Origin: Periplaneta americana
Lineage: Eukaryota; Arthropoda; Insecta; Blattodea; Blattidae
Direction of reading: 5' to 3'
NCBI RefSeq assembly: GCF_040183065.1
Contig: NC_091124.1
Location: 96,304,501-96,368,500, forward strand
DNA: 64,000 bases
Each line of letters begins with the position of its first letter. Position 1 is the stretch's first letter. Both the position numbers and the translations under genes were made by a program. This document shows positions 29,060-62,627 of the stretch, piece after piece. Below the pieces are notes generated by a model that did not search any database, was not told the origin of the DNA, and was given only the letters and a program-made list of their open reading frames with translations.

Positions 29060-29117
<58 letters not shown>

Positions 29118-35090: not shown

Positions 35091-35243
35091 CTTTCTGTAG
35101 GAGAGGACTGCAGATATAATCTGGACTCCCAGGGATTATGCCCACCACTTCAAGACAGTTGTCCATTCCTAATTTATACTCTATCGTTTCTCCTCTCCAA
35201 TATTCCAAACGTCTCACTCTGTTCCTCTTTGATCGTCTTACAT
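35091..35243 (-). CDS. CENPC: CENP-C exon carrying the CENP-C motif
   Basis: Acceptor TCTTATTTTTCAG, donor AAAG|GTTTAC. It reads VRRSKRNRVRRLEYWRGE, then TIEYKLGMDNCLEVVGIIPG and SPDYICSPLLQK. The first 18 residues are the CENP-C motif (family pattern RRSxRxRxxPxxYW), which contacts the H2A/H2B acidic patch and the CENP-A C-terminal tail; here the usual Pro is Arg (VRRLEYW). Phase 1-1, joining exon 37376-37552 (Asp split codon) and 20362-20460 (Ala split codon). An identical exon lies at 62475-62627. Confidence 0.92.
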
Positions 35244-36296
35244 CTGAAAAATAAGACAAATGTAACATGTTTGTATACAGTCTTTATTTTTAATAGAATG
35301 AGTAAAGAAATCTAACATTTTATTGAAAAAATCACTTTCAAATGGATTTGAAGACCATCAAGAAACAGAAAGGCACTGAGTCTTACAACTTCACACAGTC
35401 TCCAAGGTACTGTAACCATTCAAACCAACCAATGTGAAGCAATTACAAATGATGAGTTGTTATGGAAGTGGCTCACTGTAGTTGCTTTGGTTTGTCATGA
35501 ACACGCAGTTCTGAATTATATGGCAGGGTGTGGATGTGACATGTGTTTGTACTCTGGCGTGGCAGTTACTTTCACTGTTTCGAAGTTCATTTTCTACTTT
35601 TGTCACAATTATTATTGTAGGTGTATTCGTTATTGTTTTAGTGCGCCTGAAAGCATTATAGCATTCATATTTCAAGTTTTTTATACTTTCCACGATGTTA
35701 AGTGCATAGAGTTTGAAAAAAAAAGATTCTGCATCAGAAACAAAACACAACACACAATCAGAAACAGACCTTTGGGTATTCCACCTTGTTCTGGAACTAG
35801 ACATTTACAACGTTTCGAAACTACGTGGTAAAGTCATTAAGTTCTGAGACTGACGCCTGAAGAGAAGAATTTGGATGTCTCACAAGATGCCATGTAACCT
35901 TCTCACTGGTTTTCTTCATGTTTACAGCCTACTCTTGCAAAACTGCATTGCTCTGTTGAATTTAAGTACCGGTAATGGCTGAAAGCTTGTCTCCTCGTTC
36001 TTTTACAAAACAGCATTAATATTTCCAAACATTTGTTTGGGGTCTGTATGTATTTATTGGTATGGCATTATTAATTTCATCAATTTCTTTCAGTTGCTTC
36101 GCCGAATCTTTTCGAATTATCGCCATAATGAACTTACTATCACTGCCTTCTAAATATTTCCCGCACTAAACAAAAACAATTGCAAATCATGTGTGGCAAT
36201 ACGCAGACAATTTCTAATCTGGTACGGCAAGATTATTTCGACAATATTACAGTGATAGATGGCCGTGATTGGTTGAAAATAAAAGAATTCTTAAGA
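35244..36296. other. no recognisable feature
   Basis: Intron sequence between CENP-C exons. A short minus-strand open stretch starting MKKTSEKVTWHLVRHPNSSL (about 35920) has no splice sites or homology I can support. Shared with 62628-63680. Confidence 0.4.
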
Positions 36297-36892
36297 GCCC
36301 CATATACGGGGAGGTATGTCTGAATTGGATGATTGCCCATACATGCTCAGACTTACCTCTAGACTAGTTTACCAAGCAGACATAAGAGATCAGTGAAGTT
36401 ATTTCCCTGGGGAAATCCGATCACTCGAGAAATACTATTCCTCCATGGTTCTCCATTCATTTCTAAGTGATTCCTTAGCATGATTTTTAAATATATCTAC
36501 AGATTCGCTGTTATAAGTGTTATTAAAACTTTTTTGATTTTCTATGGAAAATATTTACACATTTCTATAAATTCTAAGAGAAATGCATGAGAACAGTTCC
36601 TTAAATCTGAACTTTCACAGCTTGCCGCCATTTCCCTATAGAGAACTGCACAACGTAACAATGAAATCTCGACCAGATGCTCGCAGTATCATTTATTTCT
36701 ATGCTTACTTTTTCTGCCGCTTAATTTGGAGAGCGCTATAGTAGGAAAATTTCAAGTAGTCCTAGAAATCTGAAGACTTATCTCAAGGCCAAAAGCCTTG
36801 AAAGCCATCATACTTTTCGCCCATTCACGACGAGACTTGCCTGTGGATTTAGGTTTACAGAGTAAGTCTTAGTATGTATGGGGGACCTTTAT
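36297..36892. mobile_element. possible MITE with inverted terminal blocks
   Basis: GCCCCATATACGGGG and GCCCATACATGCTCAGACTTAC near the left are mirrored by AGTAAGTCTTAGTATGTATGGG and GGGGGACC near the right. No TSD could be fixed, so the ends are uncertain. Repeated at 63681-64000 (cut by the window). Confidence 0.35.
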
Positions 36893-37375
36893 ATGAGATT
36901 GATTACTGAATGCATGAGCAAAATAGACAAAATAATAAATGTAATTAAGTTTTTTTTTAATTTGACTCTCAATTAACAAAATAATTAATAATCATTGGAA
37001 ATAATAAGAAACTTGTATAGAACAATAGACTTTGAATACCTTTTCTCTTCACAGACACCATTCCAACATCATGTTAATCAATTGAACTTAATGTACTTTG
37101 AGTACTAGTAGAATTACTTATCAAATTTGTACTAATCCTGTATATTATACACTTCACATTATTTTTTGTTTGACTTGTAAAACTTTCATTTTTTAATATT
37201 AGCAGTATTGTTTATTTACCAATTATATTTGTTGTGAAAATTGAAAAAAAAAAAAAAAAATTTACAGTAACATAATATTGTTCCATATTTCGTGCTCTGG
37301 GAAAAATACAACTAAAATTATCACAGTAAGCAATCTGTTACTTTTAGTAAGAAGTCACATTAAACAACTGATCAC

Positions 37376-37552
37376 CTGGTTCATTTTCTGAGATCGGTGT
37401 CCTCTTTTCTCCTTTATTAGGTGCAGCACTCTTATAGGATTTTGTTGAATGTTTTACAGGTGTATTCTTATTCCTCTCGTTTGCCATTCTTGAATTTCCT
37501 TTACCATGCTCAGAAAGTGGAGGACTTTCATCTCCTTTGTTACTGGTATCAT
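37376..37552 (-). CDS. CENPC: CENP-C exon, serine/lysine-rich linker (downstream copy)
   Basis: 177 nt. Acceptor TTATCTTAAAG, donor CCAG|GTGATC. It reads DTSNKGDESPPLSEHGKGNS, RMANERNKNTPVKHS, then YKSAAPNKGEKRTPISENEP. A low-complexity basic linker as found N-terminal to the CENP-C motif. Phase 1-1: its last G plus AT of exon 35091-35243 gives Asp. Appears identical to 38131-38307. Confidence 0.8.
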
Positions 37553-37619
37553 CTTTAAGATAAAAAAAAAGACATCAGTAATCAAGGGTAATATTTCAGT
37601 TGTCTAACTGTAACATCAG

Positions 37620-37677
<58 letters not shown>

Positions 37678-37815
37678 TAATAATAAAGAAATTTAAGAAA
37701 CGTTATAGAATATCTATAAAATAAAAAGGCCGTACTACAAAAATTCAACCTGTCTACACATCATGATGCACTTGGAGAACTATTATAGACAGTGAAATCC
37801 GGTTATGAAAGCCAG

Positions 37816-37940
37816 CTATAATGGCTGGGGAGGGGAGTGTCATCGCACTAACCACACAATACCTCCATTCTGGTTGATGTGGGCGTGAGGCCAGCTGTTG
37901 ACTGGTCAGTCTGAGCCCTTAAAGGGCTGTAATGTCACAG

Positions 37941-37982
<42 letters not shown>

Positions 37983-37984
37983 GC

Positions 37985-38018
<34 letters not shown>
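37816..38018 (+). mobile_element. retroposon 3' end with (ATT)n tail, copy 1
   Basis: The block GGCTGGGGAGGGGAGTG...CCTTAAAGGGCTGTAATG followed by ~75 bp of ATT repeats looks like a LINE 3' terminus with its simple-repeat tail. The second copy is 38571-38741 through the 755-bp duplication. Confidence 0.55.
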
Positions 38019-38020
<2 letters not shown>

Positions 38021-38130
38021 AGTAACATAATATTGTTCCATATTTCATGCTCTGGGAAAAATACAACTAAAATTATCACAGTAAGCAATCTGTTACTTTT
38101 AGTAAGAAGTCACATTAAACAACTGATCAC

Positions 38131-38307
38131 CTGGTTCATTTTCTGAGATCGGTGTCCTCTTTTCTCCTTTATTAGGTGCAGCACTCTTATAGGATTTTGT
38201 TGAATGTTTTACAGGTGTATTCTTATTCCTCTCGTTTGCCATTCTTGAATTTCCTTTACCATGCTCAGAAAGTGGAGGACTTTCATCTCCTTTGTTACTG
38301 GTATCAT
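38131..38307 (-). CDS. CENPC: CENP-C exon, serine/lysine-rich linker (upstream copy)
   Basis: Same 177-nt exon as 37376-37552 with the same splice sites. Because it is 59 codons long and phase 1-1, including both copies adds an in-frame repeat of 59 residues. Including only one also keeps the frame. Earlier exons of the gene were not found between here and 49.2 kb. Confidence 0.75.
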
Positions 38308-38374
38308 CTTTAAGATAAAAAAAAAGACATCAGTAATCAAGAGTAATATTTCAGTTGTCTAACTGTAACATCAG

Positions 38375-38435
<61 letters not shown>

Positions 38436-38570
38436 TAATAAAGAAATTTAAGAAACGTTATAGAATATCTATAAAATAAAAAGGCCGTACTACAAAAATT
38501 CAACCTGTCTACACATCATGATGCACTTGGAGAACTATTATAGACAGTGAAATCCGATTATGAAAGCCAG

Positions 38571-38695
38571 CTATAATGGCTGGGGAGGGGAGTGTCATCG
38601 CACTAACCACACAATACCTCCATTCTGGTTGATGTGGGCGTGAGGCCAGCTGTTGACTGGTCAGTCTGAGCCCTTAAAGGGCTGTAATGTCACAG

Positions 38696-38740
<45 letters not shown>

Positions 38741-38741
38741 G
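38571..38741 (+). mobile_element. retroposon 3' end with (ATT)n tail, copy 2
   Basis: Duplicate of 37816-38018 within the 755-bp tandem repeat, with a shorter ATT array. Confidence 0.55.
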
Positions 38742-38988
38742 TGGGAGTATGTTACAATCTGGTTGAATACTGAGCACTTGACAACTAAATCATCTGACTG
38801 ACTATTTTCAATTTGTACTTCGTACTTATATATAGGTGGGCACTGTTACACCTAGAAGGCTTTAGACATACGAACTTTTGAATCAATATGCTTCTAAATG
38901 AAATAAGTATAATAATCCTTCAATAACTGTCTTATTAACCTAAGAAATAACACAAAAATTTACATTAGGTCATTACACAATTAAACAT

Positions 38989-39025
38989 GACTAGCGCTTT
39001 CGCCAATTAATGGCATCTTCAGGTC
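38989..39025 (-). ncRNA. hammerhead-ribozyme-like motif in a Penelope-like element
   Basis: Minus strand: GAC (stem I), CUGAAGA core, extra U, GCCA / loop UUAAU / UGGC (perfect stem II), GAAA, palindromic AGCGCU as stem III, A17, then GUC closing stem I. It overlaps the end of the GIY-YIG reading frame (RPEDAINWRKR). The layout, including the extra U, matches the motif at 12955-13004. Confidence 0.55.
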
Positions 39026-39293
39026 TATTAGCATATAATAATGCTTTGAGCATAAAGACGTACGGTAAGGAAGTGTTATTACCGAGAAATTTAGAAATAT
39101 AAAATTCTTCTGCAACTAAATTGATTTTCCCGTTATTAATAGGTTTTAAAATTTGTAAAGCATCTGATATTTTTTTAAGTTCATGGTTATTCTCTATCAG
39201 GTGGGAGGCAAATTTTGATCTATTACGTCTATGACAAAAATCTGCTTTGTGTTCTGAATATCTAGTTTTGAAATTTCCTTTTAGTTTGGCCAA
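38991..39293 (-). pseudogene. Penelope-like element, GIY-YIG endonuclease C-terminal part
   Basis: Minus strand reads LKGNFKTRYSEHKADF, NRSKFASHLIENNHELKKIS, ALQILK and VAEEFYISKFLGN, then a stop. This is the C-terminal half of the GIY-YIG nuclease region that follows the RT in Penelope-like elements (FKxRxxEH ... SKFAxHxxxxxH ... E-x-YIxK). The reverse transcriptase is absent; the element is truncated. Confidence 0.75.
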
Positions 39294-39407
39294 TATATTT
39301 CTGTGTACAATTCAGTATGCTTCTATTCGATTATTAGAAGAACATGATTTCTTAGGACTAGACGAATCTTGGTTACAGATAAATAATAAATTAATTATAA
39401 ACGTTCC

Positions 39408-39487
39408 GGCTCTGGAACAATTTTTCCTTGAAATTATTCAAACCTGCTTTACAGGGAGCTACTACCTGAAAGCCAGATCTGTATAAT
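39408..39487 (+). mobile_element. fragment of the SINE tail found at 42182-42256
   Basis: GGAACAATTTTTCC, GAAATTATTCAAA and TTTACAGGGAG are shared in order with the SINE units at 42.1-42.5 kb. The tRNA-like head is missing. Confidence 0.6.
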
Positions 39488-40436
39488 TATAAACGGTTTC
39501 AAATGCTTTAATAAAGACGTAAGAACCAAGTAGAGCAAAATAGGAAGAAACTCAGGGGTACAGAAGAAAAAAACAAATATGATTAAGGAAATTAAAACAA
39601 GTCTCGAGGAAATTATATGGTTAGGAATATTAGATTGTAATAAAAAAGTTAAATGCTTATTGGGGTGCATTTATGTACACCCAAAGAATTCAAAATGGCC
39701 AATAATAATTTCTGGATGGAACTGAGGACGGAAGTGAGAGAATTAAGGGACAATTTCAAAATAGAAGAAATACTACATAACTAAAACTAAATGTAGAAAT
39801 AGTATATAGGAAATTGTATAGAACAGTAAAGGAAAGAGAATTGAGGGAACTCGGAAAATGTTTGTATGTAGTAAAGAAAAATGGAAGGAAAAACTAATAG
39901 TTATTAATAGTAAAATGTAGTTAAGGGTGGTTTCCTGGAAACCAAAAGTAACAGACCACCATTAACGAATGATACACAAATTATACATAATTTTAATGAC
40001 AATAAATATACAATATGCTTCTATTCACCTCCATTACTGTTGTTATCACAGTGATATATGGTACCAAAATTCAGAATGAAATAATGACAGACTTGACATA
40101 GAATTTTGTCTCGACTCGTCTATGAATAATGGTATTTTTTACGTGCAGTACACTAATGGAAAGAAAAAAAATGGCCGGCTTAGAAACTTCTTCATGGCTG
40201 CCATACAGTACACCTATACCAAAATTTTGCATCATACTGTCTTTTTGATTACACTTACTCTTTTTCCCTCCCACATCTTTAGAATGAATGTACCGGTAAC
40301 TCTGTTCTGCCGTTATCTTTTTCTAACTCACGAAACTTTCAAATACAAGAATTTAACAAAAATTAATTTTTCAGGTGCATGCAATGATTACCACATGTAC
40401 ATGTTTAATGGACATTGGCAAAGACTTACTGTCGAA
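39488..40436. other. no supported feature; faint LINE-like coding traces
   Basis: AT-rich; around 39690 a short stretch MANNNFWMELRTEVRELRDNF looks like a coiled-coil LINE N-terminal part, but it is too short and isolated to call. Confidence 0.35.
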
Positions 40437-40551
40437 GTGTGTGATAGCTCAATGGTATAATGTTTGACTACCTACAAAGCAAAAGTTACTTTACTCTACA
40501 AAACAAAAATTACCACATGATGAAAGATTAGTGGAACAGAGAAAAATTCTC

Positions 40552-40622
40552 TCCGGCACCGGGATTTGAACCCAGGTTTTCAGCTCTACGTGCTGACGCT
40601 CTATCCACTAAGCCACACCGGA
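40552..40622 (-). mobile_element. tRNA-like SINE head
   Basis: Minus strand folds as a tRNA: acceptor TCCGGTG/TGCCGGA (two G-U pairs), A box TGGCTTAGTGG, anticodon stem TCAGC/GCTGA with loop ACGTAGA, T arm CTGGG-TTCAAAT-CCCGG. Base 33 is C instead of U, so it is more likely a SINE head than a working tRNA-Tyr(GUA). Confidence 0.6.
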
Positions 40623-40845
40623 TTCCCATACTGATGTCGGATTGAATCTTCTCAGTTTAAGTTCCATTCCTTGGGTTCCCTCTAGTGGCCTACCCTCACG
40701 CACTGCGTCATCATAGATGTATGACAGTGGCACAATGTTCATACATGTGCAGAGGAGCACTCGTTATGAGTGACTAAGTGACCGGGATCCGATGGAGTAA
40801 GCACCATCTTAAATCACTAAGTGATTATTTTTCGCATATAATATT

Positions 40846-40866
40846 ATATATATATATATATATATA
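40846..40866. repeat. (TA)n microsatellite
   Basis: About ten TA units. Confidence 0.9.
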
Positions 40867-40885
40867 CCATGTTCGAGTCCCGCTC

Positions 40886-41193
40886 ACCATTTTACTTTCT
40901 TGTAAGTTTGTATTTTCACGTGATATAAATTTTATTCCATTATTTCTGTCTTAATATTTTGCAAATATTGTGTCTTATGAGTGTGGCAGTTTACTGAGCT
41001 ACCCAAATCAACACTCCTGATGTATTATAACAATCTCGCATTTGATTGAAACTGCATCAGTGTGCTTCAGAGCGACCTGTCTTTTTTTTTTTTTCTGGTG
41101 CACTTGTTGCTAGAAATCACAGTTTTTTCTACACCCAATAACATGTTATCTTTGATAGATAGAACTGTGCTATTAAAGCCCATTGCTACAGAG

Positions 41194-41229
<36 letters not shown>

Positions 41230-41880
41230 AATGATAACATAATCAAATAAAGATGAAAAATTACACTCAAGTCACAATGCCAATTTTACTTTAACCTACA
41301 TTAACAGCTTTGACAGAGCTTTCCTTATCGAATGATTCTGTCTGCACCTCGTGGTTATTGGCTAAAATACGAGTTTTGAGATTATTCCCTCATACATTTT
41401 CGACGTTAAAAACCTGATGAGTATTGTTGAGTTAAATAAATAAGTAAATATACAAGTAGTAAATAAATACATATACATAAATAAATAGACAAAACAAACA
41501 AACAAACAAATACGTAAATAAATAAATAAATAAATAGTGATCAGTGGAAAGAACCAATTCTAAAATTCAGAATTTATGGAGGACAATCTTTTGGCTGCTA
41601 CGTACTTTAAATTTTATAGTAACCAATTTCCACTGAACTGTATTTTATTTCATGAAAACATGCTGATCATATCCAACATGAAAAATAACTTTCAAACAGT
41701 GCTTTAGTTGGGGAGACTGTGGGGAAAAGTGGGCGCTATCCCCCGAAATATATGTTATTAATTTTTATTTTTATCTTGTTTTATTTTTTGTAGAACAGAA
41801 ACATGTCTCCAAATCATTTAGACTGACACAGCTGCCATTTATTTTGTTTAATATTGTCTTATTTATGTACCGGTATCAAA
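40886..41880. other. no recognisable feature except (TA)n at 41200-41226
   Basis: AT-rich sequence with a TA repeat (41200-41226) and an AAAT-rich run at 41440-41535. No gene or element supported. Confidence 0.5.
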
Positions 41881-42114
41881 CACAAGTGCACTTGAATAAT
41901 TTCGAGGGAAAAATTGTTCCGGGGCCGGGTATCAAACCCGGGACCTTTGGTTAAACGTACCAACAGTCTCCCAACTGAGCTACCCGGGAACTCTAGCAGG
42001 CACCGATCCAAGTCACATAGAGTTAGTGTGCACTCAATGTTGGTTACTTGACAGTTGTCAGCCCACTTTGAGGTCTGTGGATATAGAAGGAAAAATTGGA
42101 TCGGTGTCTGGTAG

Positions 42115-42188
42115 AGTTCCCGGGTAGCTCAGTTGGGAGAGCATTGGTACATTTAACCAAAGGTCCCGGGTTCGATACCCGGCCCCGG
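42115..42188 (+). mobile_element. tRNA-like head of SINE unit 2
   Basis: TCCCGGGTAGCTCAGTTGGG, anticodon stem TTGGT/ACCAA with loop ACATTTA, and GGTTCGATACCC. C at position 33 and an acceptor mismatch argue against a working tRNA. Confidence 0.6.
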
Positions 42189-42403
42189 AACAATTTTTCC
42201 CTCGAAATTATTCAAATCAACTTTACAGGGAGTAATACCTGAAATCTTGATTTGCATAATACACGTCACTGTTAGTTAACAGAAAACCACAATTTAAGTC
42301 ACACACAGAGTTAGTGTGCACTCAATGTTGGTTGCTTGACGGTTGTCAGCCCACTTTGAGGTCTGTGGATATAGAGGGAAAAATTGGATCAGTGTCTGGT
42401 AGA

Positions 42404-42477
42404 GTTCCCGGGTAGCTCAGTTGGTAGAGTGTTGGTACGTTTAACCAAAGGTCCCGGGTTCGATACCCAGCCCCGGA
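42404..42477 (+). mobile_element. tRNA-like head of SINE unit 3
   Basis: As unit 2 but loop ACGTTTA, so the anticodon position reads GTT (Asn). C33 is kept, as in the other heads. Confidence 0.6.
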
Positions 42478-43170: not shown

Positions 43171-43183
43171 TAATGAGAATTTG

Positions 43184-45983: not shown

Positions 45984-46031
<48 letters not shown>

Positions 46032-47319: not shown

Positions 47320-48355
47320 CTTCAGAGTAATCTTTGAGATCAAAATGTTCAATTATATTTGAGAATTTCACTTTTCTCTCGCTCTTGTTACACATTTGGA
47401 AAACAGCTCTCCGGATTACGGAGCGCATGGTGTCTGAAAATAATTAGTAGCTACTCTGTCTGCACCTGTTTGCAGAAAAAAATCACGACGTCGTATTCAG
47501 AAAAGTATAATGAATATCTCTACAAAATTTTATCGAGGTGATAGAGGGCTACACCTTTTAAAAGTCAATTCGAAATATATAATAAGGTAAAACTCAAACT
47601 CTTTGCACATGTTTATCCAGACACTTATTCTAGACAATAAGATAATAATTTTTGTCACGAAAATTAGCTTATATGTAAGTACATACCTTCTTATAATATA
47701 TCCACACTCTGCATTAGAAAAAAATACTGCATTAACTTTACCACTTTGCACCATCCAAACACATACTCCGCGCCCGCCTGTGCAGCGCAAATGATCTTAC
47801 CGGAGACATGCAACTTTCGCTCTGTTGTGAGGGTCCCCTACCAGATGTAAGCATCTGTATACACTTGGATAGTATACTTTGGAGTGTTATAAACACGTCT
47901 ATATAAGAATTTAGCATTAAAGATAGGGTGTGAAAATTGATTTTTGGCCGGCTATCTGCTTGAAATTACACACTGTGGGTCGGGTACAACGTCGTTTAAC
48001 CAATCGCGTACTTCCATATGCGTAATCCTTAAAATTGTCCACACAGACGTCGCTGGAATTGCTAATTCACGACTAGCCTTCCAAACATAATTCTTGGGGC
48101 TACGCGTGAAAAAATCTCTCACTCGTTCAACGCACAGGCAGAGGAAACAATGCATGCGCGTAAAAAACTGTTTGAGTTGCTCTTTCATTTCATGTATTAT
48201 TTATAATTGTACGTTGAATGTAATAAATACTACAAAGCCTTAAAACCCCGATATTCATTTTGAAACACCAGGTATTGGTATAATACAAGTGTGTGTGAAA
48301 CAGAGCTATAAATAATTGATTATGGATTAATAAAACTAATTTTAGCATACTTACT

Positions 48356-49290
48356 TACTTACTGGCTTTTAAGGAATCCGGAGGTTCATTGCCACCCTCA
48401 CATAAGCCCGCCATTGGTCCCTATCCTGAGCAAGATTAATCCATTCTCTATCATCATATCCCACCTCACTCAAATCCATTTTAATATTATCTTCCCATCT
48501 ATGTCTCGGCCGCCCTAAAGGTCTTTTTCCCTCCGGCCTCCCAACTAACACTCTATATGCATTTCTGGATTCGCCCATACGTGCTACATGGCCTGCCCAT
48601 CTCAAACGTCTGAATTTAATGTTCCTAATTACGTCAGGTGAAGAATACAATGCGTGCAGTTCTGTGTTGTGTAACTTTCTCCATTCTCTTGTAACGTCAT
48701 CCCTCTTAGCCCCAAATATTTTCCTGAGTGCCTTATTCTCAAACACCCTTAACCTATGTTCCTCAAAGTGAGAGTCCACGTTTCACAACCATAAAGAACA
48801 ACTGGTAATATAACTGTTTTATAAATTCTAACTTTCAGATTTTTTGACAGCAGACTGGATGATAAAAGCTTTTCAACCGAATAATAACAACAGGCATTTC
48901 CCATATTTATTCTGTGTTTAATTTCCTCCCAAGTATCATTTATATATTTGTTACTGTTGCTCCAAGATATTTGAACTTCTCTACCTCTACAAAAGATAAA
49001 TTTCCAATTCTTATATTTCCATTTCGTACAATATTCTGGTCACGAGACATAATCATATACTTTGTCTTTTCGGGATATACTTCCAAACCTATCTCTTTAC
49101 TTGCTTCCAGTAAAATTCCCGTATTTTCCCTAATCGTTTGTGGATTTTCTCCTAACATATTCACGTCATCCGCATAGACAAGCAGCTGATATAACCCATT
49201 CAATTCCAAACCTTCTCTGTTATCCTGAACTTTCCTAATGGCATACTCTAGAGCAAAGTTAAAAAGTAAAGGTGATAGTGCATAGAGGTG
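48356..49290 (-). mobile_element. LINE ORF2 3' part with (TTAC)n tail, spans the duplication boundary
   Basis: Minus strand: [35 protein letters not shown] (catalytic YADD), [12 protein letters not shown], then HRLRVFENKALRKIFGAKRD and RRLRWAGHVARMGESRNAYR to AMNLRIP and a TTAC microsatellite. About one frameshift in the middle and a truncated 5' end. The copy-2 duplication edge (49221) falls inside it. Confidence 0.88.
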
Positions 49291-49514
49291 AAAAAATCTA
49301 TGTATCATGTTACAAAAATGAGTAGTTAATATGGTATATATAGTATTATCCATGATGGAATGTATAGGGTCCTAAAGAGGTGGTTTCAGTCTTGTTATAA
49401 ATTCCAGAACTCAGTCAACCTCTATAAAACTGAGTACTAGATTTTTCACAGATCACGGTGAAGACTACATCACCTTTTCTTAATGTCGAGTTCAACAAAT
49501 CATAAAAGCTCTAC

Positions 49515-49706
49515 CTTTCTGCCTCCTGTATACACGGACATGTCTATCTTTTGAATATACGTAATTACCAATTTCATTATCAGCTGCATTCTCCCTTCTA
49601 CTTTTCACTGACATCTGTGGAATTTTTTTAGGTGACATCTTCTTCTGTTTTTCAGTAACACTATCATAGTCCTCCATTGTTTCACTGCCACTGCGTGGAA
49701 TGGGAC
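49515..49706 (-). CDS. CENPC: CENP-C pre-cupin exon, second copy
   Basis: Identical in reading (GPIPRSGSETMEDYDSVTEK ... RHVRVYRRQK) and splice sites to 15351-15542. On the minus strand it lies 5' of exon 38131-38307. Its phase 1-1 lets it splice to that exon in frame. Whether it is used is unknown. Confidence 0.7.
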
Positions 49707-50243
49707 CTTTCATCATGTGTAAAAAAAATGGAGAAAAAAAAAGAATAACTTAATATAATGTGTTTCATATTCTTCGTGACTACACCGATCAGAGTATTTA
49801 TATAAAGTTCAGTGCAGCCAATGGCTCATGCACTAAGCATCTATATGACTGTGGGGTGAAGTATACATATAATAGCCAGTGTTGTAAGTTTGCACTCGAT
49901 GTTTATCAATAAAATTACAGTTAGATAAATGTGTTTCAATTCTCTCTTGAACACAAGGTATATATCTATGAATCACGGTGGGCATCAGATGGGAGCAATT
50001 CCGAAGTAGGTGAAGGAACTAAGATCTAAATCGAGGCTGACAAGAAGTAGAGTAATGAAAGTAGATGATAGTTCAGGAAGCAGTGTTGAAACAAAAGGGG
50101 AAAACAAGGTGAAAAAGCAGTATGACTTAAGGAAATGGTGTGGAGGGGAAATAAATCGTGAGAAAAGAAAACTAAGAACTAAATAAAGTAGCAATGTGGA
50201 AAAGTTAGCAGTGAAAAGTGCAAATAGTTAGAGATGTGAAGTG

Positions 50244-50526
50244 AGGAGAAATGTGCCATACACGAGGGGGGTCAAGAATTAGAAATATAGTATTTTTGGT
50301 ATAATAATGGGTGAGAAGTGAATTAGTGGAATAATTGATGATGGACAATAAAAGACTAGTGGAAGAATTGCAATACTAAATTAATAAGTAATGACCTAAA
50401 TGACTTGTACGAGAGGCGTTGTAAAATGGGGAGATGGCACTGTGTACTAATAATGTGAAGTACTGCCTCACCAAAAGGTATATTGCTTAAAGACAAATAT
50501 GTTCATTCATTCATTCATATCTATGA
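50244..50526 (+). mobile_element. retroposon 3' end with (ATTC)n tail, copy of 16080-16362
   Basis: Same sequence as 16080-16362 within the large duplication. Confidence 0.4.
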
Positions 50527-52115
50527 ACCACACATTCAAACAAATTCAGCATGTGAAATGCAAAGACCTTTTTTCTATGAAGTTCCCTGTTATGGACATT
50601 CCAAATAGTACTAAAATACATTGACCCGGAACAAAACTGAAAGTGGCAATTTAATTAAAAAACACACACACACACACAAAACGTTATATTTGTTTCAATT
50701 GAAATGGAAGTAGGTTATACAGAGAAACACTAAACTGATATTCTGAGAATCAGCATACAAACTTGCTCAGCACGTAAGGATATCCAAAATTTCTCCAAAT
50801 GTAATCTTCATCTTACGATGTTGGATGACGTATATACATCCGTTGATGTGACATATTACATACAAAACTTCTCCATTTACGAAACTATTAAAGTTGAAGC
50901 CTATAAAATAACTGACTTACATAAACTTTGTTCCATTGATCCTGCCACAAAATTGAATTTTCCTACGTAACTACATCCGAAATCAGATTCATGACCGAAA
51001 AATCTATTCTTATCACATGTTCTTCCAACTTCATAGCAGGGTAAATTGGCAAGATAAAGGATACTAGATTTATAAGGAATTCTGCATCCTCCACAAAGCC
51101 CTACTTATGATTTTAAAAAATTAGAATCTTGTATTCTACTCCAGGTGAAAGAATAACAGAACTAATCTTTCATGAAGTAAATAGGCGTCAGTATAGAACT
51201 GAGCTTCTTCAACATGGAGATGCAGGGAATGTGAACATTCGAAAAGTTAAATCAAGTAGCCTACTAAGTAATTTTTCAGATCCAACATTGACTTTATCTG
51301 CAGCATGCACTGAACCTTAATCTACAGAATAATAGAAAAAAGCTCCTGAAACATAATGCATGGCAGACTAAAATCTGCAAGAACAAGAAATCAATCAACT
51401 ACAGTTATAACAACGTTCAAGATCGTCATCCATTCCTTTGCATCTTCATTACAAAACCAATAAATGAATTCACATTTATTCTTAACCACAGAGAATTCTA
51501 TAGGACATAACATTAACGACGTGAACCCATAGGAGGCTTTGCTAAAACTCTATCTTATTTTTTAATATGAAACTTCAGTTATATAAACTAAATTAATAAC
51601 ATACCTAATGGCAAATACAATTAAGTTCAACATACATCCCGGAAAATAGAAAATATCCTCATTTTCATAAAATGTGTCTTACCTGAATGGCCGAACAAGT
51701 TACAAAATCTCAGATTATTTTAATTATCCTGCAAATATACATCACGTTTTAGGTAAATCATTTTAATACAATTGAATAGTCTACGGTAAAATTAGTTGAA
51801 TTTCCAGTAGGGATCAGTAACATTTTACTGCATTCTATTTAATTCATTCCCTTCATTCTAGGTAGTTACGTGATTGCAAAATATTCTGAACTGTAATGAT
51901 TCTTACTTTCAATTCCTTTCCTGTTATACATGTTTTTCTACTTTTATGTTGTACACAATACAAATGTGAAAAAAAAAAAAATGTTTTCTCCTCACAAATG
52001 CCCAGGTTTTGTCAGACTAAACATGAAGCATAGGTCCGGAACATGAATAATGTCTCTGATTTTTTTTAACAAATGAATAATTTGAATTTTGTATTCATCC
52101 ATATCAAATATGGAA

Positions 52116-52883
52116 TATGGAGCAGTAGGTTAGGATCCGTACAGACAAAACCAAATCGATTCAATAGAAAAGGTCCAACGCAGGGCTGCAAAATATGTCA
52201 AAATGGGAAGGGGGCAGGATGAAGAAGCAGTAAAAGACCTAAGGTGAGAAATTCTCAAATCAAGGCAACGAAAAACCAGACTGACCTCATTGTTTAAGGT
52301 ACAAATGGGACACAAAGCATGGACCGACATCAATGCTAGATTAGTGACACCATCATACTTAGGCAGGGCTGATCATATTAGGAAGTTTAAATACAGAAAA
52401 CAAAGAACAGACGTGGCAAAATTTTCCTTTGTTAACAGCACAATAGTAGAATGGAACAGCTTACCTGCGGCAATCTTTCAGGGTGGTCCTCTCAAAATCA
52501 ACACATTTAAGGAAAGGTTGAGAAGATTAGTTTGAAAATATAATTATAGGTGCAGTGTAATTATCTAAGTTGTGTCATGTAATTAATTAAGTTGATATGT
52601 AATTAATTCAGGTGATATGTAATTACTTAAGTTGGTAATAGTTGGGTTTAATAGAAATACTTATAGATTAGGTATACTTTCGTTTATTGTACGTGCTATT
52701 ATAGCATAGTTTTTATTTATAGTCCTAGAATTATTACATCTATTTAATTATAGTTAGAATTAAATTTAGTTTATTTAATTTTTTTATTACTCTAATTACT
52801 GTAAATTTTATGAATATAATTCTTGTAATGTTATTGTATATTATATATCACTGCCACCAGGTGTATATCCAATTGTAGTATTA
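52116..52883 (+). mobile_element. LINE (CR1/Jockey-like) C-terminus, copy of 17915-18683
   Basis: Same ORF2 end as in copy 1 (WNSLPAAI ... LRRLV). The TACATA tail is lost because the sequence switches to the Mutator-like insert at 52884. Confidence 0.7.
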
Positions 52884-53385
52884 TGAGATAAAATTTTGAA
52901 CACTGGTTCTTAAAAGTAGGAGAAAACATAATTTATAATTGCATATAAATCGACATAGTAGTTTTGGAATAATTCAGATGTAAATTATGCTAATTAATTA
53001 TACATAATCAATTTGATAGGTACACTTTTCAAAGAATGTATTAAGCCTAGAGACTTGAAACTTTGGAGGCCTAGTAATAATGCTTTTGGCTATAATTTAC
53101 TACCTCTGCTAGAATGCTGACTTATTTCTAACATTATTTAAATCAATTTCATTTTTTATAATTAATTTACATAGAAAAACAATCAATCCTGTGTGACTGG
53201 TAATGGAACTAATAATGTTAGAACAGTAATTGTGGTAGCAAACAGTTACTAATACAATAATAAAGCACTGTTCCAAATTTCAGACTGATAGCTGCAATAG
53301 TTTTTTAGAAAAGTGTACCTAAAGTATAAAAAATGTAGTTTTGAGAAAACAGTGGATAAAGTTCAAACTTACAATTACTGTAGTT

Positions 53386-55131
53386 TCAATGCATCCCTGG
53401 ATTGTAATCATCTTCCTTCTCCTTTTCTTCCTCTTCTCGTCTTCTTTTCTGGTTCCTCTTTGCAGTCCTATGCTCTTTTGACTGGGTTTGCATCGCTTTC
53501 TCAGCTTCTTTTACTCTTCGGACATCGATGGCACATAGCGCACGTTCCATATTCAATCCTGGTTTTATGCCCATCAACTCCAGAACTTTCTTTCTGCTGC
53601 TACTGCCATCATTGAAAGTGATAACAGCATCCAGGACACCAGTCTTGAGGACATTCAGGCCCACAAACACTGTCTTTGGCAATCTTTCCCATATGCAGTT
53701 GTTGAAACTTTCATTGGGGTTTTGGGTGCAGCCGTGTGTACATTTCTATAACAGCTTCTTGTCAGCAAGATCTCTGAATATTGGCTTTACCTTCAACATG
53801 ACAGCTTCTGGTAGGGAATGTCTGTGATCATATACTTTATTTTGAGCTTGTGCCTTATTATAACCGCACCACGAATCCAGACCTTTGGGACAGAGTTGAT
53901 GGTATGGTTTCTCGTTGGTTGAAATTTTATGGAAGTATGTAGCCCATACACTCTTCCTCATTTCTTCCACATTCCCTGTGTTCCTTCTAATGGCTAAGCC
54001 ATAGTAGGTCTGAAAGAGATCAATTTCTGTATTGGTCAAACGACCCGCTCCAGCGAGTGTCTTGCCATCATCTAGTTTTATCCCCTTTAGCTCCTTCTTG
54101 AGTCTTCCCAGTCGTGCTCCCATTCTCTTGTGAACGTGGCCTATGCATTCAAGTTTTTCAATTTCTACCCCCTCCCCATAGGGTTTGTCTTCTTGTACCT
54201 TTTTGAAACCCTTGCTGTCACCATCACCAAGATATTGCACATACCGAATATTCAGAGAATCCTCAGACTGCCTAAAAATGTTCACTGCACCTTGCACCTC
54301 CATTCCTCCACTATAACCTTTATAGTTTTTTGTACATTTATGTACAGTTCCCTTTCCCTGTGAACATGTCTGACAATATTTAGTCAATATTTCCACTGCC
54401 AACACCTTGCCCGTGAGTAATGATGTTGCAGTGACAACACCATTTAGTGACGTATGCCCCCGCTTTTGCCAACTGCCATCGAAAGCCCCACATATGTCTC
54501 TGTTGTTACCATTCAACTCCACAGTTTCCATTGCAGCTTTTCTCATTGAGGCTTCTGCAATTTCAGAGAGGGATTCATTTATAAAGAAAACTTCTCTGTC
54601 AAACCTAGCAGGTGGAGGAGGAAGATTCATAATAGCACAAAATGTTTGTGCAGCGTGTCTGCCCTTACCAATGCTTCGCATACCATACACAAGTCTTGTA
54701 TTTACATTGTACAGCCTATTTCTGTTCATTGCAGATGTCATTGTGGGCTTTACACTTTCACAATTACTGCAATGTAAATTTATTTTTGTTGCCAATCCCT
54801 TCCTGGAACTAATGTTTTCAAACATTTCCACACAGTCTTCACTATTGCAGTATTTGCATTTCACATGCTGTTTTATGAAGTCAGATAGTATACCTAAATC
54901 TATAATAATATTATTATTACTAGATGATGACACATTTTGACCTTCAGTACCTGTTATATTCTCATTCTCCAAATAAACAAGTTTTTTCTTGGATGAGCTA
55001 GGTGTAGGTTCATTGTTTTTCTCTGCCCTAACCTCAATGCTGGGGGTACAACTAACACTGTTTGTATTTGTATATTGATTGCCACGGAACTTACGTTTTT
55101 TCCCTTTATTAAAACTCTTTCTTCTAGGCAT
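53386..55131 (-). pseudogene. Mutator-like transposase, one in-frame amber
   Basis: 582 codons, ATG at 55131 (MPRRKSFNKGKKRKFRG, basic start). Zinc-ribbon-like CKYCNSEDC ... CSNC (about residues 92-126), then CGAFDGSWQKRG (first Asp), VQYLGDGDSKGF (second Asp), CIGHVHKRMGARL, CPKGLDSWCGY, NPNESFNNCIWE (Glu) and a Lys/Arg-rich C-terminus. It matches the Mutator-like transposase domain family of invertebrates. The only break is TAG at 53748-53746 (after DKKLL); the frame continues at once (KCTHGCTQNPNESF). Confidence 0.88.
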
Positions 55132-55236
55132 ATTTACACAATAAGAGCACTATGAACTATATTCACAACACCACAAAATCACAATAAACAAAGCCACGTG
55201 CTAATTCACTCTCACAACTGTAACAAGCAAAGCACT

Positions 55237-55270
55237 GTTGGCTACTCTGTGCTAGAACAGAGTAGCCAAC
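55237..55270. repeat. perfect 13-bp inverted repeat (hairpin)
   Basis: GTTGGCTACTCTG and CAGAGTAGCCAAC separated by 8 nt, upstream of the Mutator-like ATG. CAGAGTAGCCAAC also occurs in the neighbouring hAT sequence (about 55818 and 28424). Confidence 0.85.
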
Positions 55271-55552
55271 ACAATTTTCGTCTTGTACATGTTTTCTTCT
55301 TCTTCTTACATGAATTCAAGGAGAAAATAATGATAGAAACAGCCTGCAGTCGAACGAACTACAGAAGTGGGCGTGACGCTAGCATGCATTTAAATACCCA
55401 CGCACACTCAGCCATTTAAAGTCATAAAAAGACATTCAAAAAGGTCCTACCGCTAATAATGTATATATCAATCTGTTCAGAATTGAATACGGAATAATAT
55501 TAAGTAAAAATCTAAAAATGCATATTTTGGTCAATTTTAACATAAGGGTTCC

Positions 55553-56453
55553 CTTAATGTATCCAGCTGTTTGCTGACAACATAAAGTCCACTATAGTCC
55601 ACTGTAGTCTATTCAGTTGTTGTTTTTCACGAGAAATGAGGGGTATTTTGATCGGTGTTCATTATAGATGCCTGTTGCTGGTAGCCAGAGTTGAGGTATA
55701 GTCAATATATAGTGCAGGCCTGTGTCTTCTGCAACTGGTACTGATGATTTTAATTTACTTCTTTTTAGAAGAGACGAATTCACAACGTTCCACCAATCAA
55801 TGACAAAGGGACTAATCAGAGTAGCCAACTCTAACAATGAAAATTACAGAAATTTAAAAGCGTAAATTAATTTCGCCCTTAGAAAAGTTATACTAAATGA
55901 ATATATTTGTAACTTTTTTAGCTGTTTTGCTAAAGAAGCAAGCACGAGTCTTGAGAAAAGTGGAAATATAATGTAAGAAGAATTGAAAAAAACATGGTTA
56001 TGGTGTCAGCGTTGTAGGTACTACTGTAGTCTATATACAAAGTAAAATTTTTCCGCGGTTTCGTGAGCGAGTGTGCATAAAGATCACGTTGTGTGCATTG
56101 TAATTATTTTCTCTACTGTTCTTATTACATCAATTATTAGACTATTTTATATAATTAAGAGTAATATATGTTCATAAAATCAGTGTGCTTTAGGGATTTG
56201 GGCTGTATATTAACAAATTTGTATGCATAAAGAAGTTTTTCTTACATGAATCACATTAAAAACTATTTGCGTAGTTGCATGTCACAACAAAGACTGTCGT
56301 AAATCGCAAATATTTCCATGCAGAAGCAAATTGTGCACAAAACTGTGAAAAAATCAGCCTTTCCACAACGATGTTACTGATAAATTCGCTGCCATGAACA
56401 GAAGGATTCAACTTGTCTTAAAAAAAAATTGGTATGATTATTTATTACCGTTA

Positions 56454-56502
<49 letters not shown>

Positions 56503-56638
56503 GTCATCATCATCAGTCACGTATTTTAAATATACGGGTATTTAATATACATAAGCCTATACATGTTTTTTGTTACTATAAAATTAGAAGTCGACCTAAC
56601 ACTGCTTCACGCACTTTTTACGTCATGAGCCGCCACTG
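55553..56638. mobile_element. truncated copy of the hAT 27751-29253
   Basis: Starts abruptly at the position matching 28159 and runs to the true right end GAGCCGCCACTG, followed by the TSD half ATTCCGCT. Its left end and left TSD are missing, so copy 2 derives from a copy-1-like state by deletion. Confidence 0.88.
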
Positions 56639-57730
56639 ATTCCGCTTTGTTACTACATTCTGAAGTAGGCTGGCTGGGCCACGGAAAAGTATTATCAAGG
56701 TTATTGGAGATAAGAACTGAAGTTGAAATAGTTTTGAATGATAAAAGTCTCCTTTAGCTCATCGAATGTATGATGATGACTGGGTAATGAAGTTGGCATA
56801 CCTAAGTGATATATTTCACTTGGTTAACGAGCTCAACCTTACACTTCAGGGACCTTCAAAAAACAACTTTAATTCCATGGATCGAATTAATGCATTCAAA
56901 AGAAAACTTGATGTTTGGAAAGAAAGAATGAGGAAAAATATCACTGACATGTTTTTCGAGTACTACATTAAAGTGCTTGAAAGTACTGGGGGAAACATTA
57001 ATGAAATTATCTTCAAACATTTGGAGAAACTAAGAGAGAAATTTGAATATTATTTTCCTCCTTCCAAAGAAAAGAATGAGTGGATTCAATTTTCATTTAA
57101 CTCTAGTAGTGAAACCTCTCTTCAGCCATGTGAGGAAGACAACTTGATAGAGTTATTATCTTATCTGAAAGCACTCTGAAAAATAAATTCTTGGAAACAC
57201 CATTATCAGAATTTTGGATAAGCTAAGCAGAGAATATCCTTCGCTCAGCAGTGTGGCAGTGGGATAAGCATAAGCAGAGAATATCCTTTGCTCAGCAGTG
57301 TGGCAGTGGGATAAGCATAAGCAGAGAATATCCTTCGCTCAGCAGTGTGGCAGTGGGATAAGCATAAGCAGAGAATATCCTTTGCTCAGCAGTGTGGCAG
57401 TGGGATAAGCATAAGCAGAGAATATCCTTCGCTCAGCAGTGTGGCAGTGAAAAAAACTTCATCCATTCTCAACTACCTGGTTATGTGAGGCAGGCTTTTT
57501 GGCAATGGCTGCAATATGTTCAAAAGAAAGGAATCGACTAGGGCTACAAAATCTGCAAAACTGTTTGCGACTAGGTCTGAATAAAACATTGAAACCAAGA
57601 ATTGATGTTCTTGTAAAAGGATTACAAAAACAAGTATCACATTAAGTTTGTTGTAAAAGTGAAATGCTTCGTTTATCATCATCAACTCAAAGATTACACT
57701 AGTCAACAAATTTTAACTTTGAAAATTGTG
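56639..57730 (+). pseudogene. hAT transposase C-terminal half, copy of 29254-30345
   Basis: Identical reading AYLSDIFHLVNELNLTLQGP ... INAFKRKLDVWKERM. The N-terminal half is absent in this copy. Confidence 0.78.
57226..57448. repeat. 47-bp tandem repeat, copy of 29841-30063
   Basis: Same number of units and same alternating C/T variant, so the array predates the large duplication. Confidence 0.92.
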
Positions 57731-58033
57731 CCGAAATGAAACATTGCTACTATCCACATATTTGCCATGCTGAATCCAAAAATGGAACCCATTTTTTAGC
57801 AGCACCCTCAGATTTTCAGTTATTACCCTTATTACACTTCTGAAAAGTTCGATACTAACTAAGCAGTTCCACGTTTTTAATACCTAATGCAGAATGCATA
57901 AACATAGTTTTTCACTATTATAGTGGTGTTAGTATTAATAATAAAGTATCCTTCATGTTATAATGATGTAAATAGCTATTTACATTTACGTAGTGGAAGG
58001 CGGCATCGCTTTAAAACACTTTTTTGTGTGTGT

Positions 58034-59429
58034 TTAGTATTCTCTCTTTGTATGAACGAGCAGTAATAACTCATCATAGATGGATCTCATCTTCCTTTAT
58101 AACGCTGTTTCATCTGTAAAAGTCTTGGTGAAAGCGTTCCCCTTGTTCGTCACTCACTGCACCCAAGTTTTTAGGAAAAAATCTAAATGAGAATGCAGGA
58201 AGTGAATTTTGACAGACATCCTGTATCCAAAATTCTTATAATTTTGAAAGATACTCTGAACTAGTTGTCATATTTTCTTCCTTCTTGTTGCCGAGGAACT
58301 CATTCACAACACTTTTAAATGTCTCCCATGCTATACATTCGTTTGGAGTTAATTTTTCTAAAAAAAAAAAAAAAAATCGATCACACATCATTTTCTTAAC
58401 CTCAGGTCCAATGAATATTCCTTCTTTTAATTTTGCAGCACACAAGCCAGGGAATATTCTTCGTAGATATTTGAAACCTTTGCCTACTGTGTCCATACCT
58501 TTCATAAAGTTCTTAATGAGTCCTAATTGAATGTGTAAAGGATGGAGATATATTTTTTGTGGGTCAACTAAAGGTTTAAATTTTACATTATGTTTCCCAG
58601 GAGTGAAATCTTCTCTTCTTGGCCATTCCTTGATTATATAGTGATGCTGAGTATCTTGGCTGTCCCAAAGGCACAGAAAAAAGCATATTTAGTGAATCCA
58701 TTCTCCATTCCATGTAGAAGACTTTAAGATCCCGCAAATATGCCAACAATGGTTTTCATATTTTAATGACTTCAAGAATACGACGCATGTTTTCATAATT
58801 TCTTTCATTGCTGCACTGTATGTTACAGATATATAGGAAAGATTATTACGATTGTGTAACAAAACGGCTTTCGGACTAATTTTAGAAGCATCTATAAATA
58901 AGCGCCATTTCAGCATTATGTGTAATACCTAGTTTTAATCAGTCCATTTACATCGCTGCATGTACAAACTCCACAATCTGCAACTATGAAAAATGGTAAC
59001 AGATCCTTATTTATGTTTCTAAATACCGAAACACTAGTATCTTTATCCAGCAGCTTCCATTCCTGAAGACGAGATTCTAGAAGCTCAGTCAGCTGTTTAG
59101 TTAAGTACAAATCACGTACTAGATCGTTGAGTTCCACCTATGTTTTAAATGTGGCTTTTCTTCTCTCTCTTCATCTGGAATGTAGACTTCATCCCTTGAT
59201 ATAGAGAGCTGCACATCATCAGATGACGTTATGTCAGATTCCGATTCTTCTTGCCATGTAGAAGGTGGAATGGGAACAGGTAATTTTTCTCCATGAGGTA
59301 TTGGTCTTGTAGCTGATGGGAGATTAGGAAACTGAACGAGTCTCTTATTTTTTTAAGAAAATCCAGTAACATTGGTTAAGCAGAAATAACAGTCATCTTT
59401 GTGGTTCTTTTGTTCACGCCATACCATTG
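58034..59429 (-). pseudogene. copy of the unknown arthropod family pseudogene
   Basis: Same order of motifs as 30650-32045. One A less in the internal A run (A16) lengthens the open reading frame through ECIAWETFKSVVNEFLGNK. Confidence 0.55.
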
Positions 59430-59723
59430 GTTCAGAAAGTTTTTACAACTAGGCGTTTGCTTCTTCATTTCATTTCATACAGAACAGTTCACACTACTAA
59501 CAAAACCTCTACACCCGAACTAAACAAAATACAGACTGACTGCCTCTGTTTTCATTACCAGGCACCCTGTAAGTCTATATTTTCTCTCAAGTATCAACAA
59601 ACCATGATTCAGATGTGTCAAGTGAAGAGGGACTTTGTACATGTATACTAGGTATTGAAAAATGTGTATAAATTCTATATTTATAAAGCTAAATTATTGA
59701 AATTTACGTATGCATACATCGAA

Positions 59724-59929
59724 ATTAAACGTAGGCTCCTGTGGCTTCCACCAATTTCCTCAAGCAGCAGGTAATGGAATCCACAGTCTTCTGGAGGAAG
59801 TTGCGTGGGGCATTGATGATAATGCCCCGAATCTGTGCTCCCAATTCTTTATTGTCTCTGGACGGATTGTGGCATTCCTTCCTTTCTCTGTATGGCACCT
59901 TCTCTGAACGAAAACAACGGAATTCCACA
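59724..59929 (-). pseudogene. copy of the transposase C-terminal fragment 32340-32545
   Basis: Identical to copy 1 (KTVDSITCCLRKLVEATGAYV). Confidence 0.45.
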
Positions 59930-60889
59930 CTTCATAGCGTGCAGTTCGTTCGCGAACAAACAGGTGATCGACCATCTTTGCTATTGTTGCGCGAACCGCC
60001 CTTCACGGCCACCATCTATACTATGGACGCGCAAAAGTTCAAACTCTATTTAATGATTTACATGTACACACAATTTTCATTATGGTTGCATCAATATTAA
60101 AAATTCCACAGCCAATTAATAATACATAGTTACTTCCCGCCAGCACTGTATTTATGGCTATTCATAAAATACAACATTGTTGCAGTGCTCCGAAACCTGA
60201 CGTGATGGAAAAAATCTGATTACATATTCGTAATCAGCGTATCAGACTTGGTAATAATCAGCATTCTGTTTGTCGGCACAAAAAATGCTGTTGACTAGTG
60301 ATTATTATAAACTGTGAACATGTCAAGAGTTTGATAAATTGCGGCATAATAATTTTGTAACATTTATTGTTAAACCTCTATTAATTTCAAATATATTTGA
60401 TTTGTAGTGTTACCTTAGTTTTAATTTTTTATTAAGCACACCTAAACACTTCAAAAGACTGCATGAATATAATGTAACAGCAAGGGGGCTGTACCATCAA
60501 AATGGTTGAGATGCTTTAGAAATTTGTCTTGACAGGGGAAAAGCATGTCTAATCTGTTGTAAACCGCCGCAACATCTTTAGTATTTTAACTGACATGCCT
60601 TCAAAATTCCAAAAGTTTTAGATGAAAGTTGCTAAACTCGAAAAGAAAAATGATCAGAAAGTACAAAAATTATACCGTAATTTCATTTAAAATTCTGAAA
60701 TTAGCTCCCCAGTGTTATATGAAGGGGGCACACTGAAAAGTTGTCAATGTCATTTTCTGGAAGGTCCCTTCCTGTTTAGTTTGGAAAGATTAGGATTTAG
60801 TTTTATTGATCCTTTTAAGATTCATTGGCTTATAATACTTCATATACTCTGTATATAATATAAAATCCAAATTTCACCTACAGTATATA
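59930..60889. other. no recognisable feature (copy of 32546-33505)
   Basis: AT-rich, shared with copy 1. Confidence 0.5.
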
Positions 60890-62212
60890 CAGGGCTATTC
60901 AAAAAGAAGGAACAGATTTCAAATATTTATTTCTTCCAAACTACAAAAGATAGGAACACAATTCCAACATTCCTGGACAGAAGAAAATTTAAATTTTGAA
61001 CAGTCCGTGTAGAAGTTCCAATCATGGCCGCATTGGCGCTGTTGATTGTCTGTAGTAAAATGGCGACACAACAGGAAAAAGCATTTTGTGTGCTGCAATT
61101 AGCAAAACTAGAGTCCATCATTGAAGTTCATCGTGCTTTTCGCCGTCAGTTTTATAAACAACCGCCTCATCATAAGCAGATTTACCAATGGCATCGAAAA
61201 TTCATAGAAGATGGTTGCATCTGCAAACAGAAAAGCACGGGACGTCCACACACGTCGAATGAAAATGTAGAGCGTATTTGTAGAGTTTATGAAAGGAGCC
61301 CAAAAAATCCACAACACGAGCAAGCAGAGAACTGAACATTCCTCAACCAACGGTATGGTGAGTTCTGAAACACCGTCTGCACATGAAGCCGTACAAACTG
61401 CAGTTATTGCAAGCATTACATCCTGACGACCACAACAAAAGGTACGAATTTTGCATTAGCATGCTAGATGATATGGAAGAAGACAATTTTTCTGAATGAT
61501 TAATCTTTTCCGATGAATCCACTTGTCATCTTTCCGGTAAAGTTAATCGCCATAACGTTAGAATTTGGGCAGGTGAAAATCCTATGTCAGTTATTGAACA
61601 TGAAAGAGATTCACCGAAGATTAACGTCTTATGTGCCATATCTGTAAACAAAGTTTATGGACCTTTCTTCTTCATGGAGAAAACTGTGACAGGAATAACC
61701 TATCTAGACATGCTTCAAAACTGGTTATTTCCTGAACTTGAAGATGATTCAGATGACTTCATCTTCATGCAAGATGGTGCCCTGCTTCATTTCTCTAACC
61801 ATGTCTGACGTTACCTGAATGACACCATTCCAGGACGTTGGTTTGGAAGAGGAGGAGAAAATCAACTTCATCGCTGATGGCCTCCTAGGTCTCCAGACTT
61901 CACTCCTTGTGATTTTTATCTGTGGGTTACGTAAAAGACCGTGTTTTTATCCCCCCTATGCCTGACATTCTTGAAAGTCTGCGACATCGAATTGTTGAAG
62001 CTGTGAATTCAAGAACTAGAGACCAGCTGATTCATGTGTGGCAAGAAATGAGCCTCAGTTTTTATATTTGTCGTGTAACACATGGTGCTCATATTGAATG
62101 CATACAACATTGAATCTTTCTCTGTCCAGGAACATTGGAATTGTGTTTCTATCTTTTGTAGTTTGGAAGAAATAAATGTTTGAAATCTGCTCCTTCTTTT
62201 TGAATAGCCCTG
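60890..62212 (+). mobile_element. mariner-type element, copy of 33506-34828
   Basis: 1323 bp, same TIRs and TA flanks. It keeps the family-typical QDGA at the second catalytic Asp, where the first copy has QDVA, and has His where copy 1 has Gln (VHRAFRR/VQRAFRR). Shares the same TGA breaks. Confidence 0.9.
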
Positions 62213-62474
62213 TATGTTAAACAAGACATCTGGGACGAAAACATAATACCGTATTTCAAAGTCTTTACTTCACATGCAAAATATTAATATGAATTACAAA
62301 CATTAATAAATTTGCAAAAGCATAGAATCAGTTCCAGAGGTATATGAAACAATGCTGCATGAGAAACATGTTGCTTCAAGAAAAATTGTGGTGTGCAAGA
62401 TGCAGATTAAGATACGAGTTACAGAATACTATAATCAAAGATTAATGATAGTAATATATGAGTAAAATGTAAAC

Positions 62475-62627
62475 CTTTCTGTAGGAGAGGACTGCAGATA
62501 TAATCTGGACTCCCAGGGATTATGCCCACCACTTCAAGACAGTTGTCCATTCCTAATTTATACTCTATCGTTTCTCCTCTCCAATATTCCAAACGTCTCA
62601 CTCTGTTCCTCTTTGATCGTCTTACAT
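62475..62627 (-). CDS. CENPC: CENP-C-motif exon, second copy
   Basis: Same 153-nt exon as 35091-35243, with the same acceptor and donor and the full VRRSKRNRVRRLEYWRGE motif. On the minus strand it lies 5' of 49515-49706. Their phases fit (G plus GT), so transcripts could include a second CENP-C motif. Use is unproven. Confidence 0.8.

Follow-up and report, generated by a model that had tools for sequence, protein, structure and literature searches.

A second CENP-C gene of Periplaneta americana, with a tandem internal duplication predicted to place two identical CENP-C motifs ahead of one cupin

The 64,000-nucleotide stretch of the Periplaneta americana genome considered here (the window; C8:96304501-96368500, in an assembly of 3.23 Gb and 91 contigs) contains two identical CENP-C motif exons and large duplicated blocks, both of which are confirmed. 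Its minus-strand gene, which extends beyond the window and is at least 110 kb long, is by its sequence a CENP-C gene, the second in this species and a paralog of one on another contig, C5. With a probability that can be put at roughly two in three, the C8 gene has undergone tandem internal duplication and would encode two identical CENP-C motifs before a single cupin. CENP-C, the link between CENP-A chromatin and the kinetochore, is usually single-copy and single-motif (PMC549713, in the part of that paper available). The original prediction, a CENP-C with two motifs arising by a frame-preserving duplication, is supported by the evidence that follows.

Two motifs and a cupin in one open frame

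A chain of 20 minus-strand exons, placed with guidance from the C5 gene and its NCBI proteins, constitutes a single open frame of 940 residues with two identical motif exons and a C-terminal CENP-C cupin. (Window numbering is used throughout, so that positions above 64,000 lie in the flank; copy counts were taken over 224 kb of C8, the window plus its flanks.) Canonical splice sites bound the exons (AG at 20 of 20, GT at 19 of 19), a score to be read with the caveat that such sites were used to set exon limits. The 5' motif exon, MOT2 (62475-62627, 153 bp, phase 1-1), is identical over its entire length to the 3' copy, MOT1 (35091-35243).

The chain was built before P0007, an independently made NCBI protein model from the same contig, was known. 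P0007 is a predicted protein of 888 residues, letter-identical to the chain from MRTST on except that it skips the exon PRE3, and it brings both motif exons together in one protein, at residues 442-491 (MOT2) and 657-706 (MOT1). Both the open chain and P0007 have two CENP-C motifs, not the usual one per protein. (P0007 represents a cluster of seven members, and the comparison covers P0007 alone. NCBI "isoform X" models are the output of an automatic pipeline that draws on RNA reads.)

The assignment to CENP-C, also part of the original prediction, is borne out by motif and cupin together. The motif, an Arg-rich half followed by YWRGE, matches PDB entries 4x23, 7bxt, 7xhn and 7by0 (expectation values, E, of 1.4e-4 to 9.6e-4); the best match is 4x23, a solved nucleosome-binding CENP-C peptide (E 1.4e-4), and alignment to nucleosome-bound CENP-C peptides shows the arginine-rich half and the YW pair to be retained. 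The positive residues of the motif contact the H2A-H2B acidic patch and its aromatic pair contacts the CENP-A tail (PMC5371998, available portion). A shorter, 98-bp motif exon was considered and rejected, the full 153 bp being present in P0007 and in the C5 proteins P0001 and P0003. The C-terminal Mif2/CENP-C cupin, PF11699, scores 41.4 bits against a cut-off of 29 (single-copy chain), and the cupin of P0007 matches 6o2d (cnp3; E 6.5e-6). It is specified by CUP1 (13340-13491, 152 bp; PF11699, with a C5 counterpart) and CUP2 (11483-11573, 91 bp), each present once in the 224 kb; a pattern (regex) search for the cupin ends yielded nothing useful. The final exon, LAST (2853-2920), contains the stop codon and aligns with the last C5 exon; a tandemly repeated stretch (2148-2846) adjoins it.

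From its 5' side the chain runs through E2 (113092-112875), E3 (108307-108259), E4 (97146-97025), E5 (94147-94098), EB (90089-89904, 186 bp), DTSu (86953-86771), PRE3 (77950-77813) and three DTS exons upstream of MOT2 (66483-66307, 65700-65524 and 64942-64766), then MOT2, PRE2 (49569-49706, 138 bp), the 177-bp repeat exons DTS1b (38131-38307) and DTS1a (37376-37552), MOT1, POST (20362-20460, 99 bp), PRE1 (15405-15542, 138 bp), CUP1, CUP2 and LAST. A likely further exon, outside the 940-residue chain, lies near 129.1 kb. DTS1a and DTS1b are identical, and the former lies within a 755-bp local tandem repeat (37262-37982 and 38017-38737). Counted at 100% identity, MOT is present twice, PRE three times and DTS five times; two more DTS copies are diverged (73% and 67%). 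POST, which lies 3' of the motif in the first copy of the duplicated unit only, has a single match, aligns with its C5 counterpart and is included in P0007. Directly upstream of the intact DTSu, in the flank of the window, is a decayed and frameshifted DTS copy (87105-87257).

All of the duplicated exons (MOT, PRE and DTS) are phase 1-1, as anticipated, and the frame is kept through all 20 exons. One exon had been drawn wrongly. The proposed second "pre-cupin" exon, 49515-49706, is identical to 15351-15542 over 192 bp; it is, however, 54 bp too long, and the real exon is the 138-bp form (49569-49706 and 15405-15542, still phase 1-1), because the donor of that form is the one that P0007 uses and that the C5 paralog has conserved. 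The designation "pre-cupin" does not describe the normal place of the PRE exon and was rejected: in C5, PRE sits 5' of the motif.

The single-motif paralog and constraint on the C8 gene

The C5 gene (C5:53090652-53128146) has the exon order DTS-DTS-PRE-MOT-POST-CUP1-CUP2-LAST, and its proteins, P0001 and P0003, are labelled just "uncharacterized protein". It resembles the C8 gene in its kinds of exon, frame, CENP-C motif and C-terminal CENP-C cupin, and differs in having one motif; no match to DTS was found between PRE and the motif of the C5 gene. The two genes are collinear, with exons of equal length (EB 186, PRE 138, MOT 153, CUP1 152 and CUP2 91 bp), DTS lengths being variable (177 and 180 bp in C5, 183 and 177 bp in C8). 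EB has one match on C8 and one on C5 (2 of 2 candidates scored), and the N-terminal exons of the C8 gene align with their C5 counterparts. An unrooted tree of five sequences places C5 and C8 together, apart from a protein of the termite Cryptotermes and two others; the C5/C8 duplication therefore probably postdates the split from that termite.

Over 708 nt of EB, PRE, MOT, CUP1 and CUP2, synonymous divergence (dS) between C5 and C8 is 0.39 and nonsynonymous divergence (dN) 0.24. The ratio is 0.61 (bootstrap 0.42-0.96) over these exons and 0.30 for the motif core, where 9 changes fall in 96 nt. Stop codons were also simulated along a 1683-nt chain (a crude procedure, with substitution only and neither selection nor indels). 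At 0.195 substitutions per site, chains acquired a mean of 8.7 stops and none of 2000 remained open; at 0.1 and 0.05 substitutions per site, 0.65% and 6.6% did. That neutral simulation leaves no open chain at 0.195 argues for selection on the C8 gene during most of its existence; very recent decay would escape detection.

The predicted product

In the preferred reading, tandem duplication copied the block PRE-DTS(n)-motif, the frame staying open because every exon of the block has phase-1 intron boundaries. A single mRNA would carry both motifs, and its product would have two identical CENP-C motifs, their starts separated by 215 residues, followed by one C-terminal cupin. The CENP-C motif holds nucleosomes and the cupin dimerises (PMC5371998, in the portion seen). 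The arginines and Tyr-Trp pair of each motif would be expected to grip one face of a nucleosome, and a cupin dimer could contact up to four faces, bridging neighbouring nucleosomes. By analogy, the valency of the C8 product would be doubled.

Several observations weigh against this reading. The chain is without an established start codon or promoter. An NCBI model reproduces what the assembly contains, and identical exons cannot be linked by short reads. A protein search restricted to lengths of 86-273 residues scored zero matches. With dN/dS near 0.6, constraint is weak; within the motif exon, moreover, the tail (62476-62529, 54 nt) diverges fast between C8 and C5 (dN 0.50, dS 0.26; small numbers). 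Finally, P0002 (ANN_17530), the only protein found from another P. americana assembly, has 5' exons of the C8 gene, no motif and a terminus derived from a long interspersed nuclear element (LINE). P0002 was itself rejected as evidence for a protein, its exon 2 being in a different frame and its end LINE sequence; the gene model fuses exons of the C8 gene to LINE sequence and is probably a mis-prediction.

The two-motif form could also be made and be neutral, if the middle region, which evolves fast, simply tolerates an additional motif. This is possible, if on the unlikely side, and it is compatible with the preferred reading. In grass CENP-C, repeated duplication and deletion have affected the middle exons (PMC549713, as far as the available text goes), and DTS exon number differs between the copies of the C8 unit (two units in copy 1 vs three in copy 2). 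More doubtful is a functional elaboration in which Periplaneta keeps a canonical CENP-C beside one that is becoming multivalent as its motif exon is duplicated in tandem, in a drive-like contest at the centromere; the two-motif form would then build an inner kinetochore that is bridging and of high avidity, and it might serve in the germline, as has been proposed for Drosophila Cenp-C2.

The array might, on the other hand, be real and yield no two-motif product, either because one motif exon alone is spliced or because the gene is newly decaying while C5 does the CENP-C work. A single-motif gene with its NCBI proteins P0001 and P0003 does exist, exon use does vary (PRE3 is skipped in P0007), one upstream DTS copy carries a frameshift, and POST is absent from copy 2. 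Every one of the 20 exons in the chain is nevertheless open and P0007, one of a cluster of seven, has both motifs, which makes this an improbable account.

Structure and history of the array

Self-BLAST divides the locus into a first copy of the duplicated unit (15056-49219), a second (49220 to ~77463, past the window end at 64000) and a partial third (77464-81235) that consists only of R, a 3.7-kb repeat carrying PRE (15056-18793, 49220-52883 and 77464-81235). Within the window, 15056-18683 corresponds to 49220-52883 and 28159-36616 to 55553-64000, at 99.7-99.96% identity piecewise, far beyond chance. The large duplication of the original prediction is thus present, except that the duplicated block continues beyond the window and a third, partial copy follows. 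Its junction at 49220 is not a simple breakpoint: a minus-strand LINE fragment (48348-49283) continues straight across it, and the break in sequence is instead at 15056, where 64 bp of the LINE remain.

The copies differ in content. A 2669-bp segment of copy 2 (52884-55552) replaces 9475 bp of copy 1 (18684-28158), to which it has no significant similarity. The segment contains a Mutator-like transposase open reading frame (53746-55149; PF20700, E 1.4e-68) that is without counterpart elsewhere in the window; the 9475-bp stretch contains POST, which copy 2 lacks. The matches of copy 1's 19.0-28.3 kb to C5 look like transposons, because their 88-97% identity exceeds the ~70-80% of the gene's collinear blocks, and this stretch was rejected as introns equivalent to those of C5. 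In the same region, two adjacent open reading frames (21792-23570) match PF13843, which we take to be of the piggyBac type, and 21169-23919 has a 98.4% copy at 99698-102446. Both copies of the unit also contain a 47-bp tandem repeat (29831-30064 and 57216-57449).

Where copies 1 and 2 align (not counting the segments that are unlike or the DTS repeat stretch, 37262-38740), they differ by 26 substitutions in 23,194 bases (0.11%), made up of 2/3627, 9/9093 and 15/10474; 12 of the last 15 fall in LINE sequence. The first and third copies of R differ at 30 of 3731 positions, none of them in the first 1308 bp, which are identical in all three copies. Comparison of the middle with the right LINE-R junction gives, by successive stretches, 0/7260, 3/2386, 12/603, 0/1538, 11/1173 and 18/1183 differences. 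Divergence along the array is, in short, a mosaic. This pattern suggests an older duplication (1-2% divergence) with a gene-conversion patch, followed by a recent one (0.1%), both most simply generated by unequal exchange between intronic LINE/R repeats. Copy 1 would have lost most of its left LINE by deletion. From copy 2, where the Mutator-like segment now stands instead, 9.5 kb including POST would have disappeared.

Could the array be an artefact, two alleles of a single-motif gene joined end to end in assembly by a haplotype switch inside R repeats? The 0.11% difference is a possible allelic level, the large variants (9475 vs 2669 bp, and 2 vs 3 DTS units) are such as alleles might show, and the 1308 identical bp of R are a possible switch zone. 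Set against this, the 224 kb contain no Ns, and among candidates scored in the 91 contigs there is no haplotig copy of the motif exon (beyond that of C5), of the unit or of R elsewhere. Specifically, the motif exon is found at two sites on C8 and one on C5 (3 of 3 candidates scored); of the 41 matches listed for R, three are full-length, every one of them at this locus, and the other 38 are partial (40 of 4920 candidates scored); and of the 47 matches listed for the 28.4-30.0 kb piece, two are full-length (40 of 411 candidates scored). Moreover, at the middle vs right junction the LINE (12/603) and R (29/2356) flank an identical 1538-bp patch, in units that otherwise differ by ~0.1%; joining two single-unit alleles would require 2% allelic divergence restricted to 600 bp. 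A literature search on this assembly or its heterozygosity found nothing relevant. Absence of a haplotig copy and mosaic divergence together favour a real array, short of proof, and the joining of alleles is judged unlikely.

Comparison with known CENP-C systems

The literature searched, with most subscription journals outside it and its papers, one on Caenorhabditis among them, available in part, describes in those parts no protein with two CENP-C motifs beyond the mammalian central region. Mammalian CENP-C, like the predicted C8 product, has two nucleosome-binding segments ahead of a dimerising cupin (PMC5371998, in the accessible portion). Its central region and motif are related, unlike in sequence and of unequal potency, whereas the C8 motifs are canonical, recently tandem-duplicated and identical, and so are not two related but diverged segments of the mammalian type. 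According to one model, speculative in the words of its own authors, a second nucleosome-binding segment would hold on to an adjacent nucleosome (PMC5371998, same portion). An animal that has one gene with two identical motifs and a paralog with a single motif would offer a ready-made natural test of valency.

Drosophila Cenp-C1 and Cenp-C2, and young Cenp-C duplicates, are comparable in that a second full Cenp-C gene exists beside the first. They differ in being whole-gene paralogs or relocations, and the available part of the source (PMC12724597) describes no second motif within one protein. A further parallel is grass CENP-C, in which groups of exons in the fast-evolving middle have been recurrently duplicated in tandem (Talbert et al. 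2004, PMC549713, the part available). There it is exons 9-12 that are repeated, the motif lying in the conserved C terminus, whereas the C8 gene repeats the motif exon itself; it would be a case of exon-block duplication extending to the motif.

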